Below are positions 37,550-58,302 of a DNA stretch of 64,000 nucleotides, piece after piece. Numbering within the stretch: the stretch's first letter is position 1; each line of letters opens with the position of its first letter. The DNA is from Rhodoblastus acidophilus (GTDB lineage Bacteria > Pseudomonadota > Alphaproteobacteria > Rhizobiales > Beijerinckiaceae), in contig NZ_JAOQNX010000019.1 in assembly GCF_025961575.1 (NCBI RefSeq), positions 1-64,000 of the forward strand. Reading direction: 5' to 3'. The notes beneath the pieces were generated by a model. It made no database searches. It saw only the letters and a list, made by a program, of their open reading frames with translations, and was not told the DNA's origin. The translations under genes were made by a program, and so were the position numbers.

Positions 37550-37552
37550 GCC

Positions 37553-40734: not shown

Positions 40735-40791
40735 GTGGACCGCCCCCGCCCTTCGAGACGCCCGCCAAGGCGGGCTCCTCAGGGTGAGGGC
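40735..40791 (-). repeat. Family A repeat between norQ and norD
   Basis: Reads on the minus strand as GCCCTCACCCTGAGGAGCCC, the hairpin GCCCGCCTTGGCGGGC and TCGAAGGGCGGGGGC. It differs from the copy at 2842-2900 at only a few positions in the loop. It is in the middle of the nor operon. Confidence 0.85.
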
Positions 40792-40806
40792 GACTCTGTT
40801 GATCCA

Positions 40807-40869
40807 TTGATCCCCTCATCGCTTCAGGAGGCGAGCAACGCTCGCCGTCTCGAAGCACGAGGGGATCAA
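40807..40869. repeat. Second palindromic element between norQ and norD
   Basis: TTGATCCCCTC (40807-40817) and GAGGGGATCAA (40859-40869) are perfect 11-base inverted ends around GGCGAGCAACGCTCGCC. CTGCTGAA at 40721-40728 and TTCAGCAG at 40881-40888 form a further outer pair, so the whole norQ-norD gap could fold. Confidence 0.8.
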
Positions 40870-40916
40870 CACACCCATTTTTCAGCAGCCTACCAAGGCG
40901 CTTTGGGGATGAAGCC

Positions 40917-42863
40917 ATGTCGTTCTTCCGCGCACTGAAGGAATCGAAATTCTGGGAGCCGGAAGAGGCGGTCGGAACTTTTTGGGACCGAACCGTCGAA
41001 AAGCTCGACACCGAGCCGCGCTACCCCGAGGCCGCGATCGCCCTCGCTTCGGTGAAGGGCTCGCTCGGCGTGCTGTTTCGCGGCCTCGGCGGCGAAGCGG
41101 GCGTGGAGATCAAGGCGGGCGGCGACGAGACGTCTGAGCATCGGCGCTCCTGGCTCAGGCGGCTGGCGCGCGAGACCGAGCGGGTAAAATCGGCGCGGTT
41201 CGACGGCGCCACCCTGTTCCTGCCGGCCGAACTCGACGTATTCCCGCAGGCGGACCTCAACCGAAAACTCTATCTCTGGCTGGCTGCGCTGGCGGTGGTC
41301 TCGACCCCGCCGCGCGACCTTTTTGATGATCCGCTGCAACGCGATATCGTGCGCCTGCGCTGCGCCCATCGCGACAGCGAAAAGGCGGTCGCCACCTTCC
41401 CCGGTCTGCGCAAGACACGCGACGAGCTTTACGCCGCCACGCTTTCGGCGCGTGTGCAATTAATGGCGCCACCTCTGGAAACCGAACTGGAACAATGGAT
41501 TCGCGCGCGGCTGGCGCAACAGCCGCTGCACATCGACACGCCCTTGCAGCGGGCGCTCGCCGGCGATTACGACGCCTTCGCCTCGCTCGCCGCCCCACCG
41601 AAATATCGCCCCTGTCGCCCGGTGCTGATGTGGGGCGAGCGCGCCGAAAAACCCGCGAGCGGCGGAGGCCGAAGCGAGGAAACGAACGAGCCCGGCGGCG
41701 GCGCCTCGGAAGGCTCGGAGGAAACAAAAAAAGCCAAGCGCCAGAAGGCCGACCAAACCGAGCGAAAAGATTCGCTGCTGCTCTATCGCTTCGAATCGCT
41801 GCTGTCGTTCGGCGACTTCATGAACCTCAATCGCCATGTCGAGGATGAGGACGAAGACAACGCCAAGAAGGCGGCGCAGGACGCCGAGCGGATTGACGTC
41901 TCGCAACATGGCAAGAAGCCGAAAACCCGCCTCAAGTTCGATCTCGACCTCGCGCCCGAGGACGGAGACCGGGAAAAATTCTCCGGAAAATTCGTCTATC
42001 CCGAATGGGATTGGAAAAAGGGGATTTTGGCGCCCGATCAGGCGCGCATCCTTGAAAACATCGCCGAGGAGGCGTCGCAAGGCCTGATGCTCGACGCCGG
42101 CGCGAAAAAGCGCATCAACGCCGCGAAAAAGCAGTTCGAGACGCTGCGGCCCAGGCGCCGCGTGCTGGGCCGGCAGATCGAGGGCAACGAACTCGACCTC
42201 GACGAAGTCGTTCGCGCCGTGAGCGACCGCCGCGCCGGCGGCGTATCCAGCGACCGGCTCTATCGCGACGCGCGCAACGACGAGCGCGATCTCGCCGTCG
42301 CCGTGCTGTTCGACGCCTCGCGCTCCACCGAGAGCGCCGTGCATGGCCGCGCAGTGATCGCGGTGGCGCGCGAGGCGCTCGTCGCTTTGGCGCGCGGCCT
42401 CGACGCCTGCGGCGACGACCTCGCCCTCTACGCCTTCTCCTCGCTCAAGCGCGAAAAGGTGTTTTTTGACATCTGCAAGGATTTCGACGAACCGTTCGGC
42501 CCCCGCGTCGACGCCCGCATCGCGGGGCTGAAACCCGGTTTCTACACCCGCATCGGCGCCGCGATACGCCACGCGTCAAAAAAGCTGTCGCAGCGCCCGA
42601 ACGCCCGCAAACTGCTGCTGGTGATCAGCGACGGCAAGCCCAACGACCTCGACCATTATGAGGGCCGCTACGGCGTCGAGGACACCCGCCATGCGGTGCA
42701 GGAGGCGAGGCGGAGCGGGCAAAGCGTGTTCTGCGTGGCCATCGAAAGCCAGATGCGCGCCAGCCTCCCCCACCTGTTCGGCCCCGCGGGATTTTCCCTG
42801 GTGTCGCAGCCGGAAAAACTCAGCGTTGCCCTGCCCGCCATCTACCGGCATCTCGTGGGGTGA
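40917..42863 (+). CDS. norD: NorD, von Willebrand factor A protein for NO reductase activation
   Basis: Partner of NorQ in activating cNor. The C-terminal VWA domain (from about residue 460) has the metal-dependent motif LFDASRSTE and a later KLLLVISDGKPNDL. The N-terminal 350 residues are variable and include a very basic/acidic stretch around 240-285 (EETKKAKRQKADQTERKDS). The 648-residue length is typical of NorD. It closes the nor operon and converges on rnfB, with about 100 bases and a small palindrome between. Confidence 0.92.
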   Translation: MSFFRALKESKFWEPEEAVGTFWDRTVEKLDTEPRYPEAAIALASVKGSLGVLFRGLGGEAGVEIKAGGDETSEHRRSWLRRLARETERVKSARFDGATLFLPAELDVFPQADLNRKLYLWLAALAVVSTPPRDLFDDPLQRDIVRLRCAHRDSEKAVATFPGLRKTRDELYAATLSARVQLMAPPLETELEQWIRARLAQQPLHIDTPLQRALAGDYDAFASLAAPPKYRPCRPVLMWGERAEKPASGGGRSEETNEPGGGASEGSEETKKAKRQKADQTERKDSLLLYRFESLLSFGDFMNLNRHVEDEDEDNAKKAAQDAERIDVSQHGKKPKTRLKFDLDLAPEDGDREKFSGKFVYPEWDWKKGILAPDQARILENIAEEASQGLMLDAGAKKRINAAKKQFETLRPRRRVLGRQIEGNELDLDEVVRAVSDRRAGGVSSDRLYRDARNDERDLAVAVLFDASRSTESAVHGRAVIAVAREALVALARGLDACGDDLALYAFSSLKREKVFFDICKDFDEPFGPRVDARIAGLKPGFYTRIGAAIRHASKKLSQRPNARKLLLVISDGKPNDLDHYEGRYGVEDTRHAVQEARRSGQSVFCVAIESQMRASLPHLFGPAGFSLVSQPEKLSVALPAIYRHLVG

Positions 42864-42965: not shown

Positions 42966-43859
42966 CTAAACCCCGGCCTTCAGCGGCAGGTCGTCATGGC
43001 GGAGAATCTTTTTCGCCGCCGCGCCGCGCTGCGGAATACCCTTGTCGTCGTACCAGACAATGGCGCCGGTGGCGCAGCGGTCGATGAACTCGCGCTTGCC
43101 TTCGCCGATGCGGGCGATGTCGATCTCGACGAGATTGTCGCGCACGGTGAGCAGGCCGGGAGGCGCGTCGGCGACGCACTTGCCGCAGGCGGTGCAGGCC
43201 ACTTCGCAAGCGGCCTCGGCGAGGTCGCCCTCAGCGCGGCTCTTGCACGCCACCCAAAGCTTGTCCTTGACCAGGGCCAGAGCGAACAAACCCTTGGGGC
43301 AAGCGGTGACGCAATCGTTGCAGGCGGTGCACTTTTCCTGGTCCACCACCGGCAAGCCGTGGTCGTCGAGCGTGATCGCGCCCTGCAAACAGACCGTGGC
43401 GCAATCGCCGAGGCCCAGACAGCCCCAGCCGCATTCCTTGCCGCCGCCGCTGACCACCGCCGCCGCGCGGCAGGTGGACAGGCCGACATATTTCGCGCGC
43501 AAAAAGGCGACGTGACGCCCTCCAGCGCAGGCGAGCCGCGCCACACGCTTGTCCACCGCGCCGGCTTCGACGCCGAGATAGTGGGCAATGGCGCCGATCT
43601 GCGCCGGGCTGCTCACGGTGCAGCGCGCCGCGACCACTTCGCCCAAAACCAGCTTTTCCGCGAAATCGCGGCAGCCGGCGAGACCGCAGGCGCCGCAATT
43701 GCTCTTGGGCAGCAGCCCGTCGACTTCCTCGATGCGCGGGTCCTCGTAGACGAACAGCTTTCGGTTCGCCAAGGCCAGCATCAGCGCCAGCAAACCGCCG
43801 AGCCCGGCCATGAAGACGCCGGCCATGCCGACGACGCCCAACTGCCCTAACTGCTCCAC
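42966..43859 (-). CDS. rnfB: Rnf complex ferredoxin-type subunit RnfB (long form)
   Basis: Iron-sulfur subunit of the Rnf ferredoxin:NAD oxidoreductase, an ion-translocating membrane complex. An N-terminal helix (about 8-32) is followed by the Fe-S motif CGACGLAGC (residues 55-63) with a fourth Cys 16 residues later, then CGWGCLGLGDCATVC, CTACNDCVTACPKG, and a further C...CEVACTACGKC. At 297 residues it is longer than the roughly 190-residue R. capsulatus/E. coli form, as in clostridial-type RnfB. The final cluster region is incomplete: ADAPPG and IDIARIGEGK replace expected Cys ligands. It is the last gene of the operon. Confidence 0.92.
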   Translation of the reverse strand: MEQLGQLGVVGMAGVFMAGLGGLLALMLALANRKLFVYEDPRIEEVDGLLPKSNCGACGLAGCRDFAEKLVLGEVVAARCTVSSPAQIGAIAHYLGVEAGAVDKRVARLACAGGRHVAFLRAKYVGLSTCRAAAVVSGGGKECGWGCLGLGDCATVCLQGAITLDDHGLPVVDQEKCTACNDCVTACPKGLFALALVKDKLWVACKSRAEGDLAEAACEVACTACGKCVADAPPGLLTVRDNLVEIDIARIGEGKREFIDRCATGAIVWYDDKGIPQRGAAAKKILRHDDLPLKAGV

Positions 43860-43872: not shown

Positions 43873-44883
43873 TCAGGCGCTCAGCGCCGGCAGGCCCGGC
43901 GTCTGCCAACGCTGGCCGTTCTTTCCGATGAGAAGCGCATCCACGCCCGGCAGGGTCGCTGCCAACGCCAGCGAGCGCTCCGCGCCCAGCACCATGAAGG
44001 CGGTGGACAGGCCGTCGGCCTGCAAGGCGGTCGGCGCCAGCACCGACGTGCTCGCCAGCTCCAACGGCGAATGGCCGGTCTTCGGATCGAAAATGTGGTG
44101 GTTGACGAAATCGGGCGTGAACCAGGTCTCGTAGTCGCCCGAGGTCGCCAGCGCGCGCCCGTCCATGCCGAGCCGCGCCGTCAGCTTTTCGGCATCGCGC
44201 GGGTCCTGCACGCCGAGCACCCATGGCTTGTCGTTCTGCTTGCGGCCGAGCGTGTCGAACTCGCCCGCATCGATCAGCGCATGCTCGATCCCGTGGCGGC
44301 GCACCGCCAGCAGCGCGCGGTCGGCGGCATAGCCCTGCGCCACGCCGTTCAGCGTGAGCGCCATGCCGGGGCGACGCAGCCGCACGGCCTCGTCGGACAC
44401 GTCGAGGTCGCGCCAGCCCACCAGGGCGTTGGCGTCGCGAACCGTCTCGGCGGACGGAAGCCCGCCTTGCGCCTTGGCCTGGGTGAACGCATCCCACAGC
44501 GGCTGCACGGTGACGTCGAAGCCGCCGCCGGTGCGGTCGGCCAAATCCTGCGAATAGCGAAGAACTTCGACAAAGCGGGGGTCGGGCGCCGAAAGCGCGC
44601 CGGCGCGGTTGAGCGCAACCACCTGGCTGTCGTCGCGATACAGGCTCATCACCTTGTCGACGCCCTGCACTTCCGCGAGGGCGTCCGCCAGCGCGGCTTT
44701 CGCGCGCGCCTCGTCGGTGTCCAGCACCAGCAGCGACACCTTTGTGCCGAGCGCACGGCCCGAGAGGCTAAAAGGCTTGAGTTCGCGGGCATGGGCGACG
44801 GAGGCCACGGCGCCAAATCCGGCGAGCGCGGCCACCGAGCCGAGGCCCAGCGACGACCAGATCATCTTGCGGCGGTTCAACAT
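43873..44883 (-). CDS. apbE: FAD:protein FMN transferase
   Basis: ApbE covalently attaches FMN through a phosphoester bond to threonine in RnfD and RnfG. The N-terminus MLNRRKMIWSSLGLG looks like a twin-arginine or Sec signal, so the mature enzyme acts in the periplasm where the target domains are. Conserved motifs are MGTKVSLLVL-like opening ALGTKVSLLV, TGGGFDVTVQPLWDAF, and the metal/FAD-binding DGLSTAFMVLGAERSL. Length 336 is normal. Its place between the reductase-like gene and rnfB ties it to maturation of this Rnf complex. Confidence 0.93.
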   Translation of the reverse strand: MLNRRKMIWSSLGLGSVAALAGFGAVASVAHARELKPFSLSGRALGTKVSLLVLDTDEARAKAALADALAEVQGVDKVMSLYRDDSQVVALNRAGALSAPDPRFVEVLRYSQDLADRTGGGFDVTVQPLWDAFTQAKAQGGLPSAETVRDANALVGWRDLDVSDEAVRLRRPGMALTLNGVAQGYAADRALLAVRRHGIEHALIDAGEFDTLGRKQNDKPWVLGVQDPRDAEKLTARLGMDGRALATSGDYETWFTPDFVNHHIFDPKTGHSPLELASTSVLAPTALQADGLSTAFMVLGAERSLALAATLPGVDALLIGKNGQRWQTPGLPALSA

Positions 44884-44904: not shown

Positions 44905-45756
44905 TCAATACAAAACTTCGTGCCAGCGGCCCTGCGCCTTGAGCTGCGCGCAGCGCGCCTCCCAAGCCTCGGCGGACCCTACGACCTGCGCCATCGCCTT
45001 GTCCACCAGCGGCAACAAGGCTTCGGGCCCGGCAAGGAACACGTTTGTGCGCGCGTCCTGGACCATGGACCAGACCTCGCCGGCATGAGCGACGAGAGCA
45101 AGATCCAGCGCCGGCGGCGCGTCGAAGGCGGGACGCGGGCTCACGGAGGCGAAGGCCTTGAAGGTCGGCTGATCGTAATACAGCCCGAAATCGTCGTTTT
45201 CCTTGTTCTGGTAGAGCATTTCCAGGCCGCTGCGCGCGCCGTGGAACAGCATCACCGGGCCCTTCCAGCCGCCCAACTCGTCGTAGATGCGGCGCACGAG
45301 GCCGCGGAACGGGGCGACGCCGGTGCCCATGCCGATCATCAGCAACGGCGCCTCGCGGTCTTCCGGAATCGGGAAGGGATGGCCGATCGGTCCCGTGAAC
45401 TCGATCTCCCCGCCGAGCGGCAGGTTGCACAAATGGTTGGAGGCCACGCCGTCGTAGCGCTCACCATTGAATTCGTCGATCACATGGCAGCGGCGCACCA
45501 ACAGATTGAGGCCGATGCGTCCGCCCAGCGCCGGCTCCAGATCGGCGATGGAATAGAGGCGCTCGTGATAGCGCTGGCCGAACTGGCCGGGCGCGCGCAC
45601 CCGCAGGCATTGGCCGACGCGACCATTAAAAGAGTCGTCGATGGCGAAGCGCAGGCGGCGCACGTCTTCGCGCGATTCCGGCGCGGTGATGCGGTCGTTG
45701 GACACCAGCGTCGCGCGCCAGAGCCGGGAGTCCTCGGCCGAGGTGGAGAGGGTCAT
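44905..45756 (-). CDS. Ferredoxin-NADP(+) reductase-like flavoprotein (plant-type fold)
   Basis: Likely moves electrons between a ferredoxin and NADP(H). The FAD-binding domain contains RLYSIADLE (about 66-74), and the NAD(P) domain has MIGMGTGVAPFRGLVRRIYD (about 150-170). The C-terminal ending RWHEVLY resembles the aromatic tail of plant/PetH-type reductases. Length 283 is the soluble, two-domain size. Its presence inside an rnf operon is unusual (the R. capsulatus operon has none), suggesting that Rnf and pyruvate:ferredoxin oxidoreductase share a ferredoxin pool with NADP. Specificity for NADP is inferred. Confidence 0.85.
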   Translation of the reverse strand: MTLSTSAEDSRLWRATLVSNDRITAPESREDVRRLRFAIDDSFNGRVGQCLRVRAPGQFGQRYHERLYSIADLEPALGGRIGLNLLVRRCHVIDEFNGERYDGVASNHLCNLPLGGEIEFTGPIGHPFPIPEDREAPLLMIGMGTGVAPFRGLVRRIYDELGGWKGPVMLFHGARSGLEMLYQNKENDDFGLYYDQPTFKAFASVSPRPAFDAPPALDLALVAHAGEVWSMVQDARTNVFLAGPEALLPLVDKAMAQVVGSAEAWEARCAQLKAQGRWHEVLY

Positions 45757-45771: not shown

Positions 45772-46041
45772 TCAGTTCGCAAGAGGTTTGATTTCGACGG
45801 CGGCGCCGGGCTTGCAGGAGGTGTTCGAACACCCTTCGCAGCCCTCGGGCTTTTTCGCCACCGGCTTTTCGGCCAGCGGCGAGGGCGCATGGCCGACGCC
45901 GCCGCAGCCGCCGCCGACCAAGCGCAGCGGGCCCGCCTCGGGATGCAGCTCCGCGACGTGGCGCGCCATGCGCTGCACCTGGATCCAGCCCAGCAGCAGC
46001 GCCAGCAGCAGAGTCGCGGCGGCGGTCACCTGGATCAGCAT
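45772..46041 (-). CDS. Small Cys-rich membrane protein in the rnf operon
   Basis: Unrecognised 89-residue protein. Residues 3-20 form one hydrophobic helix, followed by a short basic/acidic linker and a C-terminal region with C46 (GGGCGG), C68, C71 and C76 (GCEGCSNTSC). The arrangement of one membrane helix plus a Cys cluster resembles FeoB-associated Cys-rich proteins and the NqrM maturation factor of Na-NQR, though the motif spacing matches neither exactly. It is placed between rnfA and the reductase gene, one base after the rnfA stop, so translation is probably coupled. Fe-S or metal handling for Rnf assembly is a guess. Confidence 0.75.
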   Translation of the reverse strand: MLIQVTAAATLLLALLLGWIQVQRMARHVAELHPEAGPLRLVGGGCGGVGHAPSPLAEKPVAKKPEGCEGCSNTSCKPGAAVEIKPLAN

Positions 46042-46042
46042 G

Positions 46043-46624
46043 TCAGCCCCCCAGTCCCGCAAAGCCCATGAAGGCCAGCGACAGCACGCCCGCCAGCATC
46101 AGCACCAGCACGGTGCCCTGAACCGCCTCGGGCACGTCGGCGAGTTCGACGCGCTCGCGCACGCTGGCGAGCAACGTCAGGGCCAGAGTGAAGCCGACGC
46201 CGCCGCCGATGGCGAAGGTGAGCGATTGCATGAAGTCATAGTCGCGCGCCGTCTGGAACAGGGCGACGCCAAGCACGGCGCAATTGGTGGTGATCAGCGG
46301 CAGATAGATGCCAAGCGCCCTAAACAGCGGCGGGTAGTGCTTTTTGACATACATTTCAACGAGCTGCACCGCCGAGGCGATCACCACGATGTAGCAGATC
46401 AGCCGCAGGAACTCCAAATGCGCCAACCCCAGCACCCAGTTCAGCAGATAGGCGCTGAGCGAGGCGATGATGATGACGAATGTGGTGGCGAGACCCAGCG
46501 GGAACGCCACGGCGACGCTGTGGGTGACGCCGAGAAACGGACACATGCCCAGAAACATCGCCAGGACGAAATTGCCCGACAGGATGGTTGTCAGAAGGAT
46601 CTGGGCGAGGGACTCACGCGCCAT
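46043..46624 (-). CDS. rnfA: Rnf complex membrane subunit RnfA
   Basis: Six-helix integral subunit, paralogous to RnfE, that contributes to the ion channel and a membrane Fe-S site. The motifs GMCPFLGVTHSVAVAFPLGL, VIIASLSAYLLNWVLG, LPLITTNCAVLGVALFQTAR and GFTLALTLLASVRERVEL are characteristic; the NC in TTNCAVLG is the conserved cysteine. Length 193 is exactly typical. It overlaps rnfE by 11 bases. Confidence 0.95.
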   Translation of the reverse strand: MARESLAQILLTTILSGNFVLAMFLGMCPFLGVTHSVAVAFPLGLATTFVIIIASLSAYLLNWVLGLAHLEFLRLICYIVVIASAVQLVEMYVKKHYPPLFRALGIYLPLITTNCAVLGVALFQTARDYDFMQSLTFAIGGGVGFTLALTLLASVRERVELADVPEAVQGTVLVLMLAGVLSLAFMGFAGLGG

Positions 46625-47306
46625 GACAGGCTCCCGAAGTTTTCAAGGCGTCGGCCTCGGCGGATTGAGCGTCAGCCTTCATCTGCGCGCGGCGGCGCAG
46701 GATGGAGAACAGCAGCAGCCAGCCGGCCATGACGAAGAACCCGCCCGGCGGCAGCACCATGACCACCCAGGGCTGGAAATGCTCGCCGAACAGCGGAATG
46801 CCGAAGAAGGCGCCCGCGCCCAGGATTTCGCGCACGCCGCCGATCATCACCAGGCTGAGGGTGAAGCCCAGCCCCATGCCGATGGCGTTCATCGTCGCCG
46901 CGACGGGCGGAGTGCGCGCCGCATGGGCCTCGGCGCGGCCGAGCACCAGGCAGTTCGCCACGATCAGCTGGATATAGGCGCCCAGCGCCTCATAGAGATC
47001 GAGGCTGATCGCCTGGATGGCGTAATCGGTGACAGTGACGAAGGTGGCGATGATCACGATATAGGTGGCGATGCGCACCTCCTTCGGGATCATCTTGCGC
47101 ATGACCGAGACCAGGAAGCAGGACGCCGCCAGCACGAAGGTGGTCGCTATGCCCATCGACAGCGAATTGATCGCGGAGACGGTGACGGCCAGCGTCGGGC
47201 ACATGCCGAGCACCATGACGAACACCGGATTGCGCTTCCACAGACCTTCGGTGAACTCCTCCCAGGTGCTGGGCGGCGCCATCAGGGACGAAAAGGACTC
47301 GCTCAT
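46614..47306 (-). CDS. rnfE: Rnf complex membrane subunit RnfE
   Basis: Six-helix subunit paralogous to RnfA. Key motifs: VMVLGMCPTLAVTVSAINSL, VSVMRKMIPKEVRIATYIVI, and IVANCLVLGRAEAHAARTPP with the conserved cysteine. The C-terminal 30 residues are cytoplasmic and basic/acidic. Length 230 is normal. It overlaps rnfG by four bases and rnfA by 11, so the subunits are translated in step. Confidence 0.95.
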   Translation of the reverse strand: MSESFSSLMAPPSTWEEFTEGLWKRNPVFVMVLGMCPTLAVTVSAINSLSMGIATTFVLAASCFLVSVMRKMIPKEVRIATYIVIIATFVTVTDYAIQAISLDLYEALGAYIQLIVANCLVLGRAEAHAARTPPVAATMNAIGMGLGFTLSLVMIGGVREILGAGAFFGIPLFGEHFQPWVVMVLPPGGFFVMAGWLLLFSILRRRAQMKADAQSAEADALKTSGACHGA

Positions 47307-48013
47307 GGCTTCTCCAATCGGTCGATTTTGGGAACGAGGCGCGGCAGCAGCACTTGCGCCGCCTCATTAATGCCCTTGCCCACGGCGCGGGACGTGATGG
47401 TGGTGCCGGAGATCGCGTCGATCTGCCAGGGTTGGCTCTTGGTGCCGTGCTTGACCACCTTGACCTCATTGGCGAGCGAGGTGAGGTCCTCGTTCAGCTG
47501 CACGTCGAGCGCCTTGAAATTGGCAAGAAAATCCTTGTCGGTGAGGATCTTGTCGCCGATGCCGGGGGTTTCGCGCATGGAGACCACGCCGATGCCGACG
47601 ATGCACTGGCATTCCTTGCGGTAGCCGAACATCACGCGGACGATGTCGGCATAGCCCTTGGCCGCGCCTTCCGCCGCAATGCCGTCGAGCCGGCCCTTCT
47701 CGTCATAGGCCGCATAGAAGCGGATCGCGCCGGTCGGCGGATCGCCCTCGCCGGCGGGGACGATGTCGCCATTGGCGAGCGCCAGGAAGGGTTTGACCGT
47801 CTTGGCGTTCGGCAGCACCTTGACCACCGCGCGCTCGGAGGCGAGACGGCGGTTGTCCTTGGCGCGGTCGAGCGTCAGCAGATAGCTGGCGACGATGATC
47901 AGGCCGCAAACCGCCGAAACGACGCTCAGCGCGCGCAACAGGGTGAAGGTCGGCGTCGCATGCGCCAGCGCATCCGTCGGTTGCGGCTGCGAAGTGGTGT
48001 CCGGCGCGCTCAC
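47303..48013 (-). CDS. rnfG: Rnf complex flavoprotein subunit RnfG
   Basis: Periplasm-facing subunit with one N-terminal helix (about 25-47) and a covalently bound FMN. The flavin attachment region reads DAISGTTITSRAVGKGINEA; the threonine in SGTTITS is the expected ApbE target. The 236-residue length and FMN-binding domain fit RnfG/NqrC. It overlaps both rnfD and rnfE by four bases. Confidence 0.92.
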   Translation of the reverse strand: MSAPDTTSQPQPTDALAHATPTFTLLRALSVVSAVCGLIIVASYLLTLDRAKDNRRLASERAVVKVLPNAKTVKPFLALANGDIVPAGEGDPPTGAIRFYAAYDEKGRLDGIAAEGAAKGYADIVRVMFGYRKECQCIVGIGVVSMRETPGIGDKILTDKDFLANFKALDVQLNEDLTSLANEVKVVKHGTKSQPWQIDAISGTTITSRAVGKGINEAAQVLLPRLVPKIDRLEKP

Positions 48014-49050
48014 GCTTTCGTCTCCTTGGTGGGGGCTGTGCCGAAGGCCGGCGGCTGGGTGACGCGCTCGATCATTGGCGTCGCCGCATTGCCGATCAGG
48101 ATCGCGTACATCACGCCTTCAGGCAGGCCGCCGGAATAGCGGATGATCACGGTCAGCGCGCCGATCAGCGCGCCATAGAGCCACATGCCCCGTGGCGTGA
48201 CCGGCGAGGTCACCATGTCGGTGGCCATATAGACCGCGCCGAGCATCAGGCCGCCGGAGAACAGCACGAAGCCGGGCTCGGGGAAATGCTGCGGGTTGAG
48301 CGGATAGAGCGCGGCCGCGAGCAGCGCGGCGCTGCCCAAAACAGCGGCGGGAATGCGCCAGTCGAGATAGCCGCGCCACGCCAGATAGGCGCCGCAGGCC
48401 AGGATCAGCAGCGGCGACGGGCCGACCGCCAGATGGCCCGACAGCGAGGTCAACAGGTCCCAATTGCTGGCGAGCACGCCTTCGAATTTCCAGCGGGCCA
48501 GCGGCGTGGCGCTGCTGACGCCGTCGAGATGCGAGGCCGCCCAGGCGGTCGTATCCGCCGGGGTCATGAACGGCAGCGCGAGGCTCGACGGGATGAACTC
48601 GAAGAACCGGCCCGGCATGAAGGACGGGGTGTAGGTGGCGATGGCCGTGGGGAACGCCGCCTGGGCGAAGGCGCGCCCGACCAAAGCCGGGTTGAACAGA
48701 TTGTGGCCGATACCGCCAAAGATCGCCTTGCCCAGGCCAATGGCGACGAAGCCGGCGACGGCGCCCATCCACAGCGGAAAGCCGGCGGGAAGGGTGAGCG
48801 CCAGCAAGATGCCGGTGATGGTCGCCGACCAGTCGCCGAGATCGCCGGACTGCCGGCCGAGCCGCAGGAAGAATTCTTCCGCCGCCAGACAGGCCGCGGT
48901 GACCACGACCAGCGAAGCCAGCGCGGAAATGCCGTATTGCCAGATGTAAAAGGCGCAGATCGGCAGCAACGACCACACGACATTGCGCATGATCTTGACC
49001 ACCCCAGAGTCAGCCTTGATGTGGGGCGCGGACCGGATTTCGACGCTCAT
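48010..49050 (-). CDS. rnfD: Rnf complex flavoprotein membrane subunit RnfD
   Basis: Multi-helix subunit with covalent FMN, related to NqrB. The start MSVEIRSAPHIKADSGVVKI at 49050 overlaps rnfC by four bases; the frame upstream lies inside rnfC. The flavin site is in DGVSSATPLARWK. GGIGHNLFNPALVGRAFAQA and MATDMVTSPVTPRGMWLYGA are hallmark RnfD segments. Length 346 is normal. Confidence 0.95.
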   Translation of the reverse strand: MSVEIRSAPHIKADSGVVKIMRNVVWSLLPICAFYIWQYGISALASLVVVTAACLAAEEFFLRLGRQSGDLGDWSATITGILLALTLPAGFPLWMGAVAGFVAIGLGKAIFGGIGHNLFNPALVGRAFAQAAFPTAIATYTPSFMPGRFFEFIPSSLALPFMTPADTTAWAASHLDGVSSATPLARWKFEGVLASNWDLLTSLSGHLAVGPSPLLILACGAYLAWRGYLDWRIPAAVLGSAALLAAALYPLNPQHFPEPGFVLFSGGLMLGAVYMATDMVTSPVTPRGMWLYGALIGALTVIIRYSGGLPEGVMYAILIGNAATPMIERVTQPPAFGTAPTKETKA

Positions 49051-50396
49051 GCCGCCTTCTCCGGCTTGCCGCGCAACACCTGTTTGGCGACGCGGAACTG
49101 CTGCACCAGCGGAATGTTGGCGGGGCAGACATAGGAGCAGGTGCCGCACTCGAAACAGGCGCCGAGCCTGTAATTGTCGGCCATGGTGTCATACTGACGC
49201 TTGGCCGCGAGCATGCCGAGCGTGGACGGATTCAATCCCATCGGGCAACTTTCAACGCACTTGCCGCACTTGATGCACGGGAAACTCTTTTTCGATGGCG
49301 GAGCCTCGAGGTCGCGGGCGCGGAACACCAGAATGCCCGAGACGCCCTTGGTGATCGGCGCGTCGAGGCAGGCGACCGCCTGGCCCATCATCGGGCCGCC
49401 GAAAATCACCTCGACGCCCGCTTCCGGCGCGCCGACATAGTCGAGCAGGAAGCGCAGCGGCGTTCCCATAGGCACCAGATAATTGCCGGGGCGCGTGACC
49501 GCATTGCCCGCCACGGTGATGACGCGCTCAATAAAACCGCGTCCGCGCGGAGCGAGCGCGCCCATATAGGCGAGCGTCGCGACATTCTGCACATAGGCGC
49601 CGACCGAATAGGAGCGCGCGTCCGGCGGCACCTCGCGGTTCAGCAGGGTCTTGATCAGCATTTCGCCGGCGCCCTGCGGATATTTGGTCGGCACGGATTC
49701 CACCGTGACTTCGCCGCCGGGCGGCAGCGCGGCGCGCAAAGCCTCGACAGCGTCGGGCTTGTTGTCCTCGACCCCGATAATGGCGCGCGGATTTTTCAAC
49801 AGGCGCCGCGACATGGCGATGCCCTTCATAATGTCCTTGGCGCGCTCGACCATGATGCGATGGTCGCTGGTCAGATACGGCTCGCATTCGCAGCCGTTGA
49901 CGACGAGCATATCCACCGGAAACTCTTTCGGCACCCGCAGCTTGGCGTGGGTGGGGAACACGCCGCCGCCCAGACCGACAATGCCGGTGCGCTGCACCGC
50001 CGCGATCAGTCCGGCGTCATCGACCTGATCGAGGTCCACCGGCTCCTCCCACTCGACGCTCTGCGGCGAGCCGGGGAGCGCGCGGATGATCACCGATTCC
50101 GTCCACAGCCCGCCAGAAGTCGGGTTGAGACGGATCGCCTCGACCACGCCGCTGACCGGCGCATGATGCGGCACCGAGACGAACCCGTCGGCTTGCGCCA
50201 GCGGTTGGCCGCGCACCACCTCCTGGCCGACCTTGACGATCGGCTTGGCGGGGCGCCCGACGTTCTGCGACAGCGGCACGATCAGGCGCGGCGCGAAAGG
50301 CACGCGCGTGATCGGCATGGCCGCCGTGCCCTTGTGCTCGGGCGGATGGATGCCTCGGGCGAAGGCCTCGCCGCGAAGGAAGGTGAAAAGTTTCAT
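49047..50396 (-). CDS. rnfC: Rnf complex NADH-binding iron-sulfur subunit RnfC
   Basis: Cytoplasmic subunit that binds NAD(H), FMN and two [4Fe-4S] clusters. The N-terminal RnfC motif GGIHPPEHK-like RGIHPPEHKGTAAMP, the nucleotide/FMN loop VGLGGGVFPTHAKLRVP, and the cluster motifs CIKCGKCVESCPMGLNP (about 370) and CFECGTCSYVCPANIP (about 410) are present. At 449 residues it lacks the long repetitive C-tail of E. coli RsxC and is close to the clostridial size. It starts 7 bases after nifJ; the GAGG ribosome site overlaps the nifJ stop. Confidence 0.95.
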   Translation of the reverse strand: MKLFTFLRGEAFARGIHPPEHKGTAAMPITRVPFAPRLIVPLSQNVGRPAKPIVKVGQEVVRGQPLAQADGFVSVPHHAPVSGVVEAIRLNPTSGGLWTESVIIRALPGSPQSVEWEEPVDLDQVDDAGLIAAVQRTGIVGLGGGVFPTHAKLRVPKEFPVDMLVVNGCECEPYLTSDHRIMVERAKDIMKGIAMSRRLLKNPRAIIGVEDNKPDAVEALRAALPPGGEVTVESVPTKYPQGAGEMLIKTLLNREVPPDARSYSVGAYVQNVATLAYMGALAPRGRGFIERVITVAGNAVTRPGNYLVPMGTPLRFLLDYVGAPEAGVEVIFGGPMMGQAVACLDAPITKGVSGILVFRARDLEAPPSKKSFPCIKCGKCVESCPMGLNPSTLGMLAAKRQYDTMADNYRLGACFECGTCSYVCPANIPLVQQFRVAKQVLRGKPEKAA

Positions 50397-50403
50397 CGAG
50401 GCC

Positions 50404-53400
50404 TCAATTGAACTTTTTCGCGCGGGCGATCAGTTTTTCGAGATTTTTCTCGCCGGCGTCCCAGGGCGTGCCGGGATGCACGCAGCCCGCGGCGCAACGC
50501 TCGGCGCTCTTGACGATATCGGCGTATTTCGCCCCCTTCGGGTTGGTCACGACCGCGAGCTTCGCGTCGTTATAGGCGAACACGCCGGGCGCCTGATCCA
50601 TGCATTCGCCGCAGGCGGTGCATTCGGGCGTATCGACATAGACGGGCTCGTAGTCCGGCAGGCCCTTGGCGGCAGGCGCGGCGGCGGGGGCCTCCGCGAC
50701 CGGAGCCGCCGCCGGAGCCGGAGCGGGCGCAGGGGCCGGAGCCGGCGCCGCCAAAGCGGGGACCGCCGCGGGCGCAGGAACCGCAGGAGCCGGCGCCGCG
50801 GGAGCCGGAGCCGAGGCGCCGAGGCTGACGCCCAAAGCGGCGCTGATGCTGGCGTTGAGGCGCTTGGTCAGGTCGTTGCGGACGCGATCGGCCACAGCGG
50901 CCTCGTCGAACGGCGGCTTGCCCACGACATCCTTGAGCTGGCGCCAGAACTGCAACCGCTCTTCGCTCGCCTTGACCAGCTCCTGCGCGACGATCAGGCG
51001 CATCAGACGGCCCTTGGGGTCGGTCGCCCAGATATAGGGGAACAGACCTTCGCGCTCGTCGGCGGGCAGCGAGATCAGCTCGGCCAGCGGAACCATGGAA
51101 TCGTTCCAGGTTTCCGGCGGCGCCTTGCGGAAATGCTTGGCGAAGCGCGCTTCCGTCGCCGCGAAATCGGCGAAGGTCACATGGGTGTGCATTTTGCCCT
51201 TGGCGCCGGACTCGTCGATATATTTCAGCACATAGGACGGCCAGTCGGAATCGACGGACGGGTTGCCCTTGAGGCTGACGGCGGAGGAGAAGGTCTCGCC
51301 CGCGTCGGGATCGTAGCGGAACAGCGGATAGGCGCGGCTTTCCACCGCCAGCTTGCTCTGCGCGATGCTGCGATCGTCGCCCACGCCATGTTCGGGCGGG
51401 CACACGGCATAGATGTTGAACAGGGCCGGACGGCGCGAGTTCAAACCGTCGATATAGCCTTCGAGCAGATGGGTGACATGGGCGATCGTGCTCTGCAGCA
51501 CGAAGGAGGAGCGGTGCGCCATGGCGATCAAGCTGATCTCCTTGCGGATTTCGCTCTTGCCATGCTGGGCCGCGCCATAGGGCGCCATATCCGACACCTG
51601 GCCGATGAAGCCCGACGTACAGGCTTGACCGCCGGTGTTGGAATAGACCTGCGTGTCGACGACCAGGACCTTGATCGGCTTGCCGGCCATCATCATGCGC
51701 GACAGGTTTTGGAAGCCGATGTCATACATGGCGCCGTCGCCGCCCAGGCTGACGACCGGCGGGCACAAATGCCATTCCTCGTCGGTGAACTGCTCGTAAT
51801 TGAAGCGGTTGAAGAAGTCGCGGTCGCGCTCTTCGACATACTGGCCTTTGAGCTCCAGTTCCGCCTGACGAACGGCCTTGAACCCTTCGGCCATCTTGGC
51901 CATGTGGCCCTCGAACAGGCCCATGGCGACCGACGGCGAGTCCTGGAACAGGTGCGAGGTCCAGGGGAAGGGATAGGGGTGGTAGGGATAGGTCGAGCCC
52001 CACACCGAGGTGCAGCCGGTGGAATTGACCATGCCCATCGAGGCGCGGCCGCGCTGGGTCGGCCCCTCGACATAGCGCCAGCGCAAATCCTTCAAGGCTT
52101 CCAGCAGTTTCGCGGCGCGCTTGACCCAGGCCGGGTCGAGCGGACGCGACGGCTTGCCGTCATTCAGCTTGTCGGCGAGCGTCGACAGGGTGAGGTCATG
52201 CGGCGCGGCCGAGTCCACCGCGCGCACCACGGCGCCGGTGTCCGACAAATCCACAGCCTGCGCCAATTCCAGCCGCATATGCTGTTCGAGATCGGTGATC
52301 AGCTTGTCCAGCTTGCCGATGAACGCCTTCACGCGGGGCTGCATCAGCGCTTCGACAGTGGAGGTGAACAGGTGGATCGCCGTCTTTTCGCCGCAGCCCA
52401 GGCAGGCGCCATCGCCGCAGGTCATGGCGTTGTAGTTGGCCTTGTCGAGCAGCAGGGTTTCGAGCGCGCCGACCTTTTCGTCGAGGTTTTCGATGCGGCT
52501 GAATTCCGCGCCGGTCGAGGGCAAGTCGAGCCAGAAATTCCAGTCGCGACGCAGGCTTTCGACGGACTCCTCGGTCTGGGTCTCCATCTTCAACGCGCCG
52601 TCGCCGCAGACGTCGACGCAGAGGCCGCAGGCCTTACAGGTCAGCGGATTGATGGTGATCGAGAACAGGCCGCCGGTCCCCGGCGCCTTCTTCTCGCGCT
52701 GGCGCCAATAGAGCGTCGGCGCGGCGAAATCGAACGAGCCGAGTTCGACCTTGAGCAGTTCGAATTCAGCCTCGATCGCGGCGCGCTCCTCCAGCGGAGC
52801 CTCGTCCAACACCTGGTCGAGCGCCTTGTCGATCAGCGGACGCACCGCGACATTGCCATTCGGGCCGATCAGGCCGCGCAGCTTGCGCTCGGCGGCGCGC
52901 GCCGAGCGGCGCAGATATTTGGTCGGCGTGCCCGAGCGCTCGACGCGGTCAAGCGCGGTGGCGAACACTTCGCTGACGCTGTTGACCAGGCCGGGAATCG
53001 CGCTGTCCGGACAGACCGTATAGCACTTGGCGCAGGCCGAACATTTGGAGGCGTCCCAGACCGGATGCTCGAAGCGAATGCCGGTCATGTCGCGGAAAAT
53101 GCCCGAGGACGCCGGAATCAGCGACGCGCCGATGAAGGGGTCGAGCAGATTGTCGCTGCCCTTGCCGGTGGCGTAGAAATGGCCGGTCTGCTCCCAGAAA
53201 CGGTGCATGTCGGCGACCGGAGCCAAGCTGCTGTCGCCTGCGGGGCAGCTCTTCAGCATGATCGGCAGATTGCCGCCCTTGGCCGCAATGGCGGGGACCG
53301 CGCCCACGGGCTTGTGGGTGATCTCGTGGATTTCGGTATAGCCGCGCTTCACCACGGTGAGGTTGTTGGCCACCACGCGCGCGCCCTTGGAGCCGAACTT

Positions 53401-55443
53401 GGCCTCAAGCTGCCTTTCAATCGCGGCGAACAGCGTCTCTTCGCTGAGGCCCGCGTTCTCCTGCACGCTCGACGCGTGGAAGAACGCGCCCTGGAAGGCG
53501 TTGCCCTGCATGCGCAGCTGCAATTCGGCGCTGCCGGCCTCTTCGCGGGCGATCTTGAAGGCGTCGAGATAGAAGACGCGCAGCTCGTTGTCGACGATCT
53601 GCTGCTGCGCCCAACGCGGGAACGAGGCCCAAGTGTCCTCGCCCAGATTGCTCTGGATGATGAACACGCCGCCCTTCTTCAGGCCGGACAGCGGGTTGGA
53701 ATGACCGAACACCGCCGGATCGGGCGACAGCACGACGTCGACATAGACATATTCGGAATTGACCCGGATCGGCTCCGGCGCCGCCGACAGATAATAAGTG
53801 GTCGGCTGGCCCTTCTTTTCCGAACCATATTTGGGATTGGCCTTGATCTCCCATCCGAGCAGTTCGAACAGGGTCATGGCGAGGTTCTTGCCGGTGGTGA
53901 TCGCGCCCCAGCCGCCGATCGAATGCATGCGGACGGTGATCGCGCCCTTCGGCATCAGATTGGGGTTCTCGCTACCGCGCACCACCATTTTCGTCGCGCT
54001 CGGATAGGCGCTCTGGAAGGTCTGCTGGTGCAGCTCGTCCTTGGGATGGCCGGGCTCGCGCGCCACATCCACCGACAGATAATAGAAGGAGCGTTTGGAG
54101 CCGGTCGGCAGCATGTTTTCGACTGCGCCGATCAGGCCCTCCGGCTGGAGGTCGCGCGACCCCAGGCCATAGCAGCCCGAATAGAGGCGCGGCATTTCAT
54201 GCGCGGCCAGCGCGGGATAACCGGGATGCGAGGGCGCGATGGAGCTGTTGGCGTCAAAGCCGTTTTCCAGCGCCTTGTGCAGCGCGGCGCGGACTTCGCG
54301 CATCAACGGCAAGTCTTCGGCCAGCGGCTGGTCGGTGCGCTCCAGCACGGCGACGCCCTTCTTGCCGCGCAGGATTTTTGACACGAGATCGCCGGGGAAC
54401 GGACGGAACATGGTGAGGTTGACCACGCCGACCTTGAGCTTGCGGGTTTCTCGCAGATAGTCGGCGACGGCCTCGGCCTGCACCACCATGCTGCCCATGC
54501 CGAAGATAATGTAGTCGGCGTCGTCGGTCTTGTAGCCGCTCACCCGCCCATATTTGCGGCCGGTCAGCTCCTCGAACTCCGCCATGCAGCGGTCGGCGAG
54601 CGGCTGCACCTCGTCGAAGAAATAAGGACGCTGCGCGGCGACCGCCTGCATATAGGCGTCCTGATTCTGCACCGAGCCCGAGGCCATGGGCACGTCCACG
54701 TCCCAGATGGCGGGCACGCGACGGCGCTTCGGGCCATAGAGCATGGCCTGCGCCTGAGTCGGCGTGTCGATGAAATCGTCGGGCTTACCGAGATATTCGG
54801 CGACGAGTTCGCGCTCAGGCAGGGTCACCGATTCGATCAGATGGGTGGTCAAAAAGCCGTCCTGACCGACGATGGCCGGGGTCAGCGACAGTTCCGCCAG
54901 CTTGCGCGCGATCAAGTTGAGATCGGCGGCTTCCGTAGCGCTCTTGGCCATCACCTGGATGAAGCCGGTGTCGTCGACGCAATGGTAATCGTCATGGCCG
55001 GCATGGACATTGAGGCTCGCCTTGGTGATGGCGCGGCAACCCATGTTCAGCACGTAGGGCAGACGCTTGCCCACGGTGGCGTAGAGGCTCTCGTGCATGA
55101 AGGCGATGCCCTGCCCCGACGAGAAATTGGTGGCGCGCAGGCCGGTCATTGCCATACCGGCGGTCACCGCGGCGGCGGCGTGCTCGCTCTCCGGCTCGAC
55201 GAAGATCAGGGGACGGTCGCTGACGTTGAGATGGCCGCTCGCGGCTTCCTCGGCCCAATATTCGCCCATTTGCGTGGAGGGCGTGATCGGATAGGCGCCG
55301 GCGGCGTCGGAGGCTTCGCGCTCGACATGGATGATCGCGGTGTTTCCATCCACGGCGTCACGGACACCCGGGTATTTCACCGCCTTCACCTCGGGAGCGG
55401 GGCTGGCGCCGGTCAGAGAGTCCATAATCTTCTTCAGCATCAT
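50404..55443 (-). CDS. nifJ: Pyruvate:ferredoxin (flavodoxin) oxidoreductase with fused C-terminal ferredoxin
   Basis: Converts pyruvate and CoA to acetyl-CoA, CO2 and reduced ferredoxin, possibly reversibly. In 1679 residues (the family norm is about 1170-1230): domain I from AYPITPSTQMGEYWAEEAAS, domain III near MHSIGGWGAITTGKNLA, two cluster motifs at C801/804/807/811 and C936/939/942/946, the proximal cluster pair C1014/C1017 with C1144 in NSTGCTSVWG and C1275, and the TPP motif GDG at about 1236. About 100 extra residues lie between C1017 and C1144. An Ala/Pro linker (about 1540-1592) leads to a ferredoxin domain with C1608, C1611, C1614, C1650 and C1654. The ATG at 55443 has GAGG seven bases upstream. 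It is the first gene of the rnf operon. Confidence 0.93.
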   Translation of the reverse strand: MMLKKIMDSLTGASPAPEVKAVKYPGVRDAVDGNTAIIHVEREASDAAGAYPITPSTQMGEYWAEEAASGHLNVSDRPLIFVEPESEHAAAAVTAGMAMTGLRATNFSSGQGIAFMHESLYATVGKRLPYVLNMGCRAITKASLNVHAGHDDYHCVDDTGFIQVMAKSATEAADLNLIARKLAELSLTPAIVGQDGFLTTHLIESVTLPERELVAEYLGKPDDFIDTPTQAQAMLYGPKRRRVPAIWDVDVPMASGSVQNQDAYMQAVAAQRPYFFDEVQPLADRCMAEFEELTGRKYGRVSGYKTDDADYIIFGMGSMVVQAEAVADYLRETRKLKVGVVNLTMFRPFPGDLVSKILRGKKGVAVLERTDQPLAEDLPLMREVRAALHKALENGFDANSSIAPSHPGYPALAAHEMPRLYSGCYGLGSRDLQPEGLIGAVENMLPTGSKRSFYYLSVDVAREPGHPKDELHQQTFQSAYPSATKMVVRGSENPNLMPKGAITVRMHSIGGWGAITTGKNLAMTLFELLGWEIKANPKYGSEKKGQPTTYYLSAAPEPIRVNSEYVYVDVVLSPDPAVFGHSNPLSGLKKGGVFIIQSNLGEDTWASFPRWAQQQIVDNELRVFYLDAFKIAREEAGSAELQLRMQGNAFQGAFFHASSVQENAGLSEETLFAAIERQLEAKFGSKGARVVANNLTVVKRGYTEIHEITHKPVGAVPAIAAKGGNLPIMLKSCPAGDSSLAPVADMHRFWEQTGHFYATGKGSDNLLDPFIGASLIPASSGIFRDMTGIRFEHPVWDASKCSACAKCYTVCPDSAIPGLVNSVSEVFATALDRVERSGTPTKYLRRSARAAERKLRGLIGPNGNVAVRPLIDKALDQVLDEAPLEERAAIEAEFELLKVELGSFDFAAPTLYWRQREKKAPGTGGLFSITINPLTCKACGLCVDVCGDGALKMETQTEESVESLRRDWNFWLDLPSTGAEFSRIENLDEKVGALETLLLDKANYNAMTCGDGACLGCGEKTAIHLFTSTVEALMQPRVKAFIGKLDKLITDLEQHMRLELAQAVDLSDTGAVVRAVDSAAPHDLTLSTLADKLNDGKPSRPLDPAWVKRAAKLLEALKDLRWRYVEGPTQRGRASMGMVNSTGCTSVWGSTYPYHPYPFPWTSHLFQDSPSVAMGLFEGHMAKMAEGFKAVRQAELELKGQYVEERDRDFFNRFNYEQFTDEEWHLCPPVVSLGGDGAMYDIGFQNLSRMMMAGKPIKVLVVDTQVYSNTGGQACTSGFIGQVSDMAPYGAAQHGKSEIRKEISLIAMAHRSSFVLQSTIAHVTHLLEGYIDGLNSRRPALFNIYAVCPPEHGVGDDRSIAQSKLAVESRAYPLFRYDPDAGETFSSAVSLKGNPSVDSDWPSYVLKYIDESGAKGKMHTHVTFADFAATEARFAKHFRKAPPETWNDSMVPLAELISLPADEREGLFPYIWATDPKGRLMRLIVAQELVKASEERLQFWRQLKDVVGKPPFDEAAVADRVRNDLTKRLNASISAALGVSLGASAPAPAAPAPAVPAPAAVPALAAPAPAPAPAPAPAAAPVAEAPAAAPAAKGLPDYEPVYVDTPECTACGECMDQAPGVFAYNDAKLAVVTNPKGAKYADIVKSAERCAAGCVHPGTPWDAGEKNLEKLIARAKKFN

Positions 55444-56327: not shown

Positions 56328-57509
56328 TTATAAGCGCGGCCGCACCAGCGCGCTGGCGTAAGCCGCGACAAAGCCGCCAAACGCCGCGAGCCACGCAAAA
56401 GCCGCGACATGCAGCAGGACGAAGGCGTGTTCCGGCGCCAACGCCGCCGCGATCCGCGCCAAAACCGCCAGCAGCACCGCCCCGTAGATCGCCTGGGTCG
56501 CCCGCCCCGCATGCAGCGGCCGCCCCGTATGCCCCAGACTGGCGCGCGTCATGATCGCCAGCGTCATGCCGCCGATCGCCCCCACGCCCCAGGCGTGCAG
56601 CCCCGCGCTGAGCGGAATCGCGCTGGTCCAAGCGGCCAGCCCGTTCAGCACAAACCCCACGGGCACAAACACAAAGGCGACGTGCAGGATGGCGACCAGC
56701 GCCTCCGCCCCCGTGCGCTCGCCCGCCCAGCGCGCCAGACGCCCGAAATTCAGCAGGCCGGCGACGATCATCGCCACCCCGACCAGCCGATGATCAGGCG
56801 CAACCACCCACCCAGCAAGCGCCGGCACCGAAACGCCCAGACACACCGCATCAAAGCGCGAAAAGGTTTTGGGCAGCCGCCCCGCCCCCAACCGCCCAAC
56901 AAAAGTGTGGGTAAAACTCGGGATCACGCGCCCGCCGATCAGCATCACCAGGGCGATCAGCGCGGCGACGCCGAACCGGCGGCCATAGTTGGCGCTCCCC
57001 AAAAAATGCGCCTCGACATGGAAAGCGACATTCGCCGCCGCCAGCAGCCCGACAAACACCAGCACCTTCAGATTCTTGGTGTTGCCGCTGGCGACGATCT
57101 CGCGCCCGATCACGGCGCAGACGGTCAACAAAAACGCGCAGTCGACCAAAGCGGCGGCCAGCCACCCAATCGCCCCCGACAGCAGCAGCGCGGCCCGCCC
57201 AGCACACCACAACAGCGCCAACAAAGCGAGCGGCCGGCCCTGGATCGGCAGCCGCCCGGTCCAGTTGGGCACGGCGGTGAGCAAAAACCCGGTGACGACG
57301 GCGGCGCCATAGCCAAAAACGGTTTCATGGGCGTGCCAATCCATCGGCGGCATAGCCGTGGTCAGGGTCAGCTCGCCGAAATATTGCGGCAGCCAAAGCA
57401 TCACGGCCACCGCGGCCCAAAAGGCGCCGGCGAGGAAAAAGGGGCGGAACCCCATGCTGAAGAGGGCGGGCCCCTCGTAACGACGGCGCTTCGGCGCGGA
57501 TTCGGACAT
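56328..57509 (-). CDS. nnrS: NnrS family haem-copper membrane protein
   Basis: NnrS relieves nitric-oxide stress in denitrifiers; it is a 12-helix haem protein. The conserved PPMDWHAHETVFGYGAAVVT motif (about residue 55-75), further histidines in SFTHTFVGRLG and HAWGVGAIGGMTLAIMTRAS, and LGHTGRPL are all recognisable. I start it at MSESAPKRRR (393 residues), since upstream in-frame codons cover the regulator's promoter and gene. The NnrR-type box at 57568-57581 is about 65 bases upstream, a good activating distance. It is divergent from the Crp/Fnr gene. Confidence 0.93.
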   Translation of the reverse strand: MSESAPKRRRYEGPALFSMGFRPFFLAGAFWAAVAVMLWLPQYFGELTLTTAMPPMDWHAHETVFGYGAAVVTGFLLTAVPNWTGRLPIQGRPLALLALLWCAGRAALLLSGAIGWLAAALVDCAFLLTVCAVIGREIVASGNTKNLKVLVFVGLLAAANVAFHVEAHFLGSANYGRRFGVAALIALVMLIGGRVIPSFTHTFVGRLGAGRLPKTFSRFDAVCLGVSVPALAGWVVAPDHRLVGVAMIVAGLLNFGRLARWAGERTGAEALVAILHVAFVFVPVGFVLNGLAAWTSAIPLSAGLHAWGVGAIGGMTLAIMTRASLGHTGRPLHAGRATQAIYGAVLLAVLARIAAALAPEHAFVLLHVAAFAWLAAFGGFVAAYASALVRPRL

Positions 57510-57567
57510 GAACGGCTCCCTTGGTGATGGGCGTGTCCTCTGATAAACCCTCGCCAAAGAACCAAGT

Positions 57568-57581
57568 TTGCGCGCCGACAA
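57568..57581. promoter_or_regulatory. Possible NnrR/Dnr-type operator between nnrS and its regulator
   Basis: TTGCGCGCCGACAA is a TTG-N8-CAA box whose left half, TTGCGCG, is identical to that of the norE site at 36919-36932. For nnrS it sits at an activating distance; for the regulator it overlaps the likely start of transcription, which suggests autorepression. Confidence 0.5.
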
Positions 57582-57600
57582 ACAGACGCCGGGAGGAAGA

Positions 57601-58302
57601 ATGCCGCATCTCGACCGTTCGCTGATCGCTGAGGCCCCGGCTTTTTCCGGGCTCGACGGCGCGGCGCTCGACGACATCCTCGCCCACGCCCAGTCTTTCC
57701 GCATTCCCAAGGGTGAGGTCGCCTTCCGCCAGGGCGAGCCGGCCGAAAAATTCTTCCTGCTGCTGCACGGACGGCTGCGCGTGACCCGGCTCAACCCGCA
57801 GGGCCAGCAGATGGTGGTCCGCTTCGTCAATCCCGACGACATGTTCGGCGTCGCCATGGCGATCCAGTGCGACATCTATCCCGGCACCGCCACGGCGGCG
57901 GTCGATTCGCTCGCCCTGTCCTGGCCGAATTCGCTGTGGGCCGGCATGATCGCCCGCTATCCCGCGCTCGCCGTCAACGCCATGCGGGCGCTGGGCGCGC
58001 GCTTGCAGGATTCCCAGCAGCGCATCCTCGACCTGTCCACGCAAAAGGTGGAGCAGCGCATCGCCGGCGCGGTGCTGCAACTCGCCCACCAGGCGGGCCG
58101 CCCGTCCGAAGAGGGCGTAAAGATCGACTTCCCGCTGTCGCGCCAGGATCTTGCGGAGATGACGGCCTCGACCTTGCACACGGTGAGCCGCACGCTCAGC
58201 GCCTGGGAGGCGTTCGGCCTGGTCGAATGCGGCCGCCAGCGCCTCACAGTGCGCAATGAGGAAGGTTTGCAGGCCATCGCCAAGGGCGTCGAGAGCGAAT
58301 AA
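57601..58302 (+). CDS. Crp/Fnr-family regulator, NnrR/Dnr-like
   Basis: Transcription factor with an N-terminal cyclic-nucleotide-binding-type domain (about 10-130) and a C-terminal winged helix (about 155-225). It lacks the N-terminal Cys cluster of FNR (the only sensor-domain Cys is in IQCDIYPG), so it does not sense oxygen by an Fe-S cluster; NO sensing by haem, as in Dnr/NnrR, is inferred. The recognition helix TLHTVSRTLSAWE keeps the SR of this family but has His in place of FNR's Glu. The start MPHLDRSL at 57601 has GGGAGGA upstream. Divergent from nnrS, it is the probable regulator of the nor and nnrS genes. Confidence 0.88.
   Translation: MPHLDRSLIAEAPAFSGLDGAALDDILAHAQSFRIPKGEVAFRQGEPAEKFFLLLHGRLRVTRLNPQGQQMVVRFVNPDDMFGVAMAIQCDIYPGTATAAVDSLALSWPNSLWAGMIARYPALAVNAMRALGARLQDSQQRILDLSTQKVEQRIAGAVLQLAHQAGRPSEEGVKIDFPLSRQDLAEMTASTLHTVSRTLSAWEAFGLVECGRQRLTVRNEEGLQAIAKGVESE

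Follow-up and report, generated by a model that had tools for sequence, protein, structure and literature searches.

The window analyzed here, a stretch of 64,000 nucleotides from a Rhodoblastus acidophilus contig, carries on its minus strand a gene for a protein of the pyruvate:ferredoxin oxidoreductase (PFOR) kind with a ferredoxin domain at its C terminus (PFOR::Fd), followed by the genes of an Rnf complex (Table 1). The original prediction of a nifJ-like reading frame with a fused ferredoxin was well founded: the frame is real and runs on the minus strand from a start at 55443 to a stop at 50404, with a GTG at 55470 as a possible alternative start, and the residue numbers first given for C1608, C1611, C1614, C1650, and C1654 are exact on its translation. 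A 1382-codon open frame lies antisense to this gene (50233-54381, plus strand) and most likely arises from high GC content and codon use.

Table 1. Features of the PFOR::Fd and rnf operon, with positions in the window
Feature	Position	Strand	Basis
PFOR::Fd gene	50404..55443	-	Open reading frame, 1679 aa; Pfam domains; PDB 6cin, E 7e-82
Ala/Pro linker, residues 1544-1593	50665..50814	-	43/50 Ala or Pro; low-pLDDT coil in model
One-cluster ferredoxin domain, residues 1594-1679	50407..50664	-	Pfam, PDB match, fold model; predicted ligands C1608, C1611, C1614, C1650
rnfC	49047..50396	-	TIGR01945, 463 bits, over cutoff; start 7 bases after PFOR stop
rnfD	48010..49149	-	PF03116, E 2.5e-95; uncertain start codon; overlap with rnfC in the listed frame
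rnfG	47303..48013	-	PF04205 FMN_bind
rnfE	46614..47306	-	PF02508; aligned to RnfE homologs
rnfA	46043..46624	-	PF02508; aligned to RnfA homologs
Small one-helix Cys-rich protein (96 aa), recurrent after rnfA	45772..46062	-	Matched in 29 loci
FNR-like NAD(P)-binding flavoprotein	44905..45756	-	PF00175, PF00970; match in 27 loci
apbE, flavin transferase	43873..44883	-	PF02424, E 3e-67
rnfB, predicted docking subunit for ferredoxin arm	42966..43859	-	PF04060, over cutoff

The PFOR core and the surrounding operon

Pfam places POR_N, PFOR_II, POR, two Fer4 domains, and TPP_enzyme_C along the protein in that order, with Fer4_13 at the C-terminal end, and this is the domain order of the 2-oxoacid:ferredoxin oxidoreductase superfamily. 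The motifs YPITPS, GGDG, and NTGGQ, the two domain-V cluster motifs, and the proximal-cluster cysteines are all present (residues 51, 1234, 1268, 801, 936, and 1009) and are near-universal among 89 homologs. Domain order, TPP motifs, and cluster motifs are shared with the homodimeric PFOR/NifJ family (TIGR02176; 1b0p and 6cin), and a PDB sequence search returned the PFORs of Moorella (6cin) and D. africanus (1b0p) as the nearest solved structures to the core. The protein nevertheless differs from that family in falling far below its cutoff (391 bits for TIGR02176, against a required 911), in having an insertion of ∼79 residues between its domain-V cluster motifs (query 827-931 versus 703-728 of the structure chain), and in carrying a ferredoxin. 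It is thus predicted to work like a PFOR without belonging to the TIGR02176 equivalog, and is, to judge from these differences, a divergent long form; the name nifJ used in the original prediction is loose. Pyruvate is the predicted substrate by analogy with the nearest relatives.

Two further species of the genus have canonical NifJ, scoring 1640-1690 bits. In a PFOR tree of 51 rows, built by a quick method whose output carried a warning on long outer branches, the clade of the window protein stands apart from a second long clade, from the split forms, and from NifJ. The second long clade includes a 1513-residue paralog from the same genome (G000:C40; L132:7647-12188) that has no ferredoxin tail and no rnf genes nearby.

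All six Rnf subunits (A, B, C, D, G, and E) are encoded in the window. RnfB reaches 64.5 bits with TIGR01944, short of the cutoff of 68.7; long RnfB-type NCBIfam models match it better than TIGR01944, yet below their own cutoffs. Because the slot after rnfA held only the 96-residue protein, the idea was considered that RnfB is missing and its role taken by the ferredoxin, but this is ruled out by the rnfB gene at 42966-43859. The 96-residue protein, whose cysteines are clustered, has no Pfam match; its layout resembles that of NqrM, but an NqrM-like factor is unsupported by Pfam. The FNR-like flavoprotein, for which the PetH and BoxA models score below cutoff and whose matched loci include Persicobacter, is a possible NADPH branch of the operon. 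Genes of the NO-reductase type (COX3-like, cytochrome c, COX1-like, NorQ-like, and a VWA protein; 36968-42863) flank the operon on one side, and nnrS with a Crp/FNR-type regulator (56328-58302) on the other. A search for FNR/Dnr boxes gave no convincing site 5′ of the operon, and the 17 sites counted in the window are not above chance (11.4 expected, S.D. 3.6).

The ferredoxin domain and its tether

The C-terminal domain resembles the ferredoxin I (FdI) type in sequence and in predicted structure. It matches Fer4_13, the “single cluster domain of Ferredoxin I,” with 25.7 bits against a cutoff of 24.5, its best PDB sequence match is D. africanus ferredoxin I (1dax, E 9e-8), and the fold predicted for it is that of a ferredoxin (pLDDT 91), closest to 1fxr (rmsd 0.8, TM 0.85 on the target). 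D. africanus ferredoxin I binds one cluster through C11, C14, C17, and C54 and keeps C58 as a spare. Alignment with 1dax shows that the CxxCxxC and distal CxxxC(I/V)H motifs are common to the two.

This comparison changes the reading of the cluster site. Residue 1618, where a fourth motif cysteine would stand, is alanine in the window protein and alanine, asparagine, or serine across the 87 loci compared, never cysteine. The original prediction had pointed out the missing cysteine; since the one-cluster FdI type uses a distal cysteine as fourth ligand, alanine at this position is the normal state. Nor is C1654, first listed beside the three motif cysteines, constant. With the best 80 of at least 571 relatives plus nine others as a base, the three cysteines of the CxxCxxC motif are found in 87/87, 87/87, and 87/87 loci, and C1650 in 86 of 87, the one other locus stopping at the edge of its contig, against only 68 of 87 for C1654. 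The fourth ligand should therefore be C1650, which together with CxxCxxC makes up the ligand set of the FdI type, and the domain is predicted to bind a single low-potential [4Fe-4S] cluster.

An inactivated ferredoxin is ruled out by the invariance of the ligands. An assembly join as the source of the fusion is likewise ruled out by a second genome of the genus (G001), where the same fusion occurs at 95% identity with indels in the linker and an identical ferredoxin, and by more than 80 other fused loci.

In two respects the domain departs from its free relative. D. africanus ferredoxin I is strongly acidic (−13 for its printed part), whereas the fused domain is nearly neutral (median −2), as if the tether had taken over from electrostatic attraction; it also has a further C-terminal helix.

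The tether itself consists in the window of 27 alanines and 16 prolines in 50 residues (86%). AlphaFold gives it low confidence and no secondary structure, in a model of the last 200 residues whose global confidence is also low (pTM 0.31). The almost pure Ala/Pro composition noted at the outset is a peculiarity of this genus, whereas a linker of ∼58 residues is general. The stretch that separates the ferredoxin from the last conserved motif of the core is 46-156 residues long in fused loci, its median length being 58 and its median Ala plus Pro content 28%, the extremes of 55-60% belonging to the window's genus and R. gelatinosus. Its sequence drifts between a core and a ferredoxin that are both conserved, as expected of a flexible tether.

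Recurrence of the fusion and its association with rnf

A scan of 84,980 species genomes for PFOR::Fd gave at least 571 relatives, the best 80 of which were examined: the fusion is present in 78, one locus is truncated at the edge of its contig, and one (L120) is without the ferredoxin. In all 83 readable fused loci from these best 80 of at least 571 relatives and nine others, rnfC lies immediately downstream. The usual gene order is rnfB-PFOR::Fd-rnfCDGEA, whereas rnfB stands last in the operon of the window's genus. As the query behind the ranking of the first list contained the ferredoxin, a second sample was taken with a ferredoxin-free core query, from genomes drawn evenly across the phylum and across the class to which G666 belongs. 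All 23 clade members in it are fused, and rnfC is next door in 21 of the 22 that are readable; the exception is G812, whose fused gene has no rnfC beside it.

The fusion is spread over Alpha-, Beta-, and Gammaproteobacteria, Bacteroidota, and Gemmatimonadota, its pairing with rnfC extending to Persicobacter (Bacteroidota) and Gemmatirosa (Gemmatimonadota). Within the window's genus, it is present in 4 of 11 genomes, exactly the four that have RnfC, and members with nif and without rnf do not have it. In the PFOR tree, sequences of Rhodoferax and Rubrivivax surround those of the genus, which suggests that its PFOR::Fd was acquired by horizontal transfer.

The unfused locus L120 falls inside the fused clade as the sister of L060 (SH-aLRT 100). 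Its protein ends before the linker and no rnf genes lie alongside, two RnfC genes being found elsewhere in the genome. Such a joint loss of the ferredoxin and the adjacent rnf cluster supports the pairing, but as a single event in a MAG it is suggestive only.

Alignment to family members thus bears out the expectation that the fusion recurs, and it co-occurs with rnf almost without exception; a domain absent from relatives and carrying inactivating changes was not seen, the ligands being kept in the fused loci. As genomic evidence, the predicted tie between PFOR::Fd and Rnf is strong, although co-transcription is not proof of contact.

The same kind of ferredoxin tail also occurs on proteins of 740-980 residues, near korB-like genes in Alphaproteobacteria or alone, with no rnf in view, and is thus a feature found more widely in 2-oxoacid oxidoreductase systems. 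In the clade of the window protein, the tail is, on the evidence of gene context, tied to Rnf. Several further tails were seen. At L133-L135 (Alphaproteobacteria), korB-like genes adjoin a protein of 740-790 residues whose only Pfam match is a C-terminal Fer4_13, and a related protein of 972 residues (L212:8152-11070) has three tandem ferredoxins on Ala/Pro linkers, with no rnf within the 20 kb read. Members of another long PFOR clade (∼1680 residues; L139-L146 and L166-L168) have a different single-cluster ferredoxin-like tail of their own, with no rnf match within the stretch read.

Electron exchange between PFOR and Rnf

In the original prediction, the adjacency of rnfC was taken to suggest that the tethered acceptor hands electrons to Rnf directly, with no free ferredoxin involved. 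The tethering and the coupling to Rnf stand, on the strength of the recurrence, the co-occurrence, and the joint loss in L120, but the adjacency of rnfC tells little about where electrons enter: the published view is that ferredoxin docks on RnfB, with direct RnfB-to-RnfC transfer unlikely (PMC11889175). For the same reason, we take RnfB to be the partner of the arm. In our judgment, the ferredoxin probably acts as a swinging arm by which PFOR and the Rnf encoded with it exchange electrons, with RnfB and not RnfC as the contact. Pyruvate (or, in reverse, acetyl-CoA and CO2) would react at the TPP site, and electrons would pass the proximal cluster and then the two domain-V clusters, as in PFOR structures. 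The disordered arm would bring the ferredoxin first to the exit at domain V and next to RnfB; Rnf would then reduce NAD+ with these electrons and pump ions, or run backwards. Docking at RnfB and the direction of flow are here inferred, as is channeling past free ferredoxin, which is plausible. The pairing of arm and Rnf gains further support from ligand cysteines that stay invariant while the linker drifts, and from the origin of FdI in the organism whose PFOR is a structural model of the family (1b0p).

The same machinery may work mainly in reverse, NADH and the ion-motive force driving Rnf backwards so that RnfB reduces the arm and PFOR acts as a pyruvate synthase for carbon assimilation. 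We regard this as a serious, if somewhat doubtful, alternative. Photosynthetic reaction-center genes are present in all four carriers of the genus and lacking in six of the seven non-carriers; outside the genus, many carriers bear the names of purple, sulfur-oxidizing, or iron-oxidizing lineages, and PFOR has been discussed as a pyruvate synthase in Kentron (PMC6593406). Sequence fixes no direction, however, and Persicobacter and other carriers need not fit the scheme. It is also conceivable, but unlikely, that the arm serves several acceptors, mainly the FNR-like flavoprotein of the operon (NADPH) and otherwise free ferredoxin or flavodoxin or a path to nitrogenase, with Rnf merely co-regulated. 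The recurrence of the FNR-like gene in 27 loci, a genus that is diazotrophic by nifD, and the related tails away from rnf would agree with such a role, but the FNR-like gene is unmatched in most fused loci where rnf is nearly constant, and the fusion is lacking in genus members that have nif and no rnf. Although PFORs in general work without a tail, and the C-terminal extension of the D. africanus PFOR is linked to stability, a purely structural or stabilizing appendage kept through operon inheritance, with no essential part in electron transfer, is very improbable for a domain in which all four ligands are conserved, the linker is not, and the modeled fold is that of a redox ferredoxin.

An acceptor module fused to the C terminus of a PFOR has a precedent in the pyruvate:NADP+ oxidoreductase of Euglena and Cryptosporidium, where the module is of the flavodoxin/P450-reductase type; Pfam gives no match to such a module at the C terminus of the window protein, which is thus not of that kind. 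In its proposed working, the swinging ferredoxin is like the lipoyl arms of 2-oxoacid dehydrogenase E2, small carrier domains on flexible Ala/Pro arms, which carry acyl groups where PFOR::Fd would carry electrons; no homology is claimed. The adjacency of PFOR and rnf is known in part: in the rnf2 cluster of the Solemya velum symbiont, PFOR genes lie between rnfB2 and rnfC2, as in the usual fused order, and pyruvate has been proposed as the donor for that Rnf, a fused ferredoxin not being described in the paper, with which we compare by description only (PMC4287430). A 2025 review of Rnf makes no mention of PFOR or fused proteins (PMC12174285), and we found no description of a PFOR-ferredoxin fusion in the open-license literature, within which neither the fusion nor its conservation and link to Rnf seem to have been described.

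In the usual view, cells share low-potential electrons by way of a soluble ferredoxin pool. A widespread PFOR with its own ferredoxin, encoded in a dedicated Rnf operon, would amount to a wired route from central carbon metabolism to an ion pump, conceptually akin to the lipoyl arm in pyruvate dehydrogenase, and makes it testable whether bacteria channel such electrons. It also points to a role of Rnf in 2-oxoacid metabolism, and not in the service of nitrogenase alone, in many sulfur and iron oxidizers and purple bacteria, and it illustrates how a homology-based gene call can hide a well-conserved architecture. More tentatively, one may imagine a standing supercomplex, in which 2-oxoacid oxidoreductases are joined to a dedicated Rnf through covalently tethered, swinging ferredoxin arms, so that electrons from pyruvate, and in a sister korAB operon probably from 2-oxoglutarate, would reach the ion pump or return from it outside the free ferredoxin pool.

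This second operon type was seen in Gammaproteobacteria (L208 from G1112, L209, L210, L211, and L213; compare L215), and G1112 carries both types. Its order is korA-korB, a homolog of the C-terminal half of PFOR (∼810-840 residues), rnfB, a longer PFOR homolog (∼1290-1560 residues), and rnfC onwards. The shorter homolog is without TPP motifs and has a C-terminal ferredoxin in four of five cases. The longer one keeps the domain-V cluster motif, is without YPITPS, NTGGQ, and the proximal CxGC, and looks like a pseudoenzyme that might serve as an electron scaffold between KorAB and Rnf. In L211 and L213, sucCD-like genes are interposed. Here again, a tethered ferredoxin is placed between a 2-oxoacid oxidoreductase and rnf genes.
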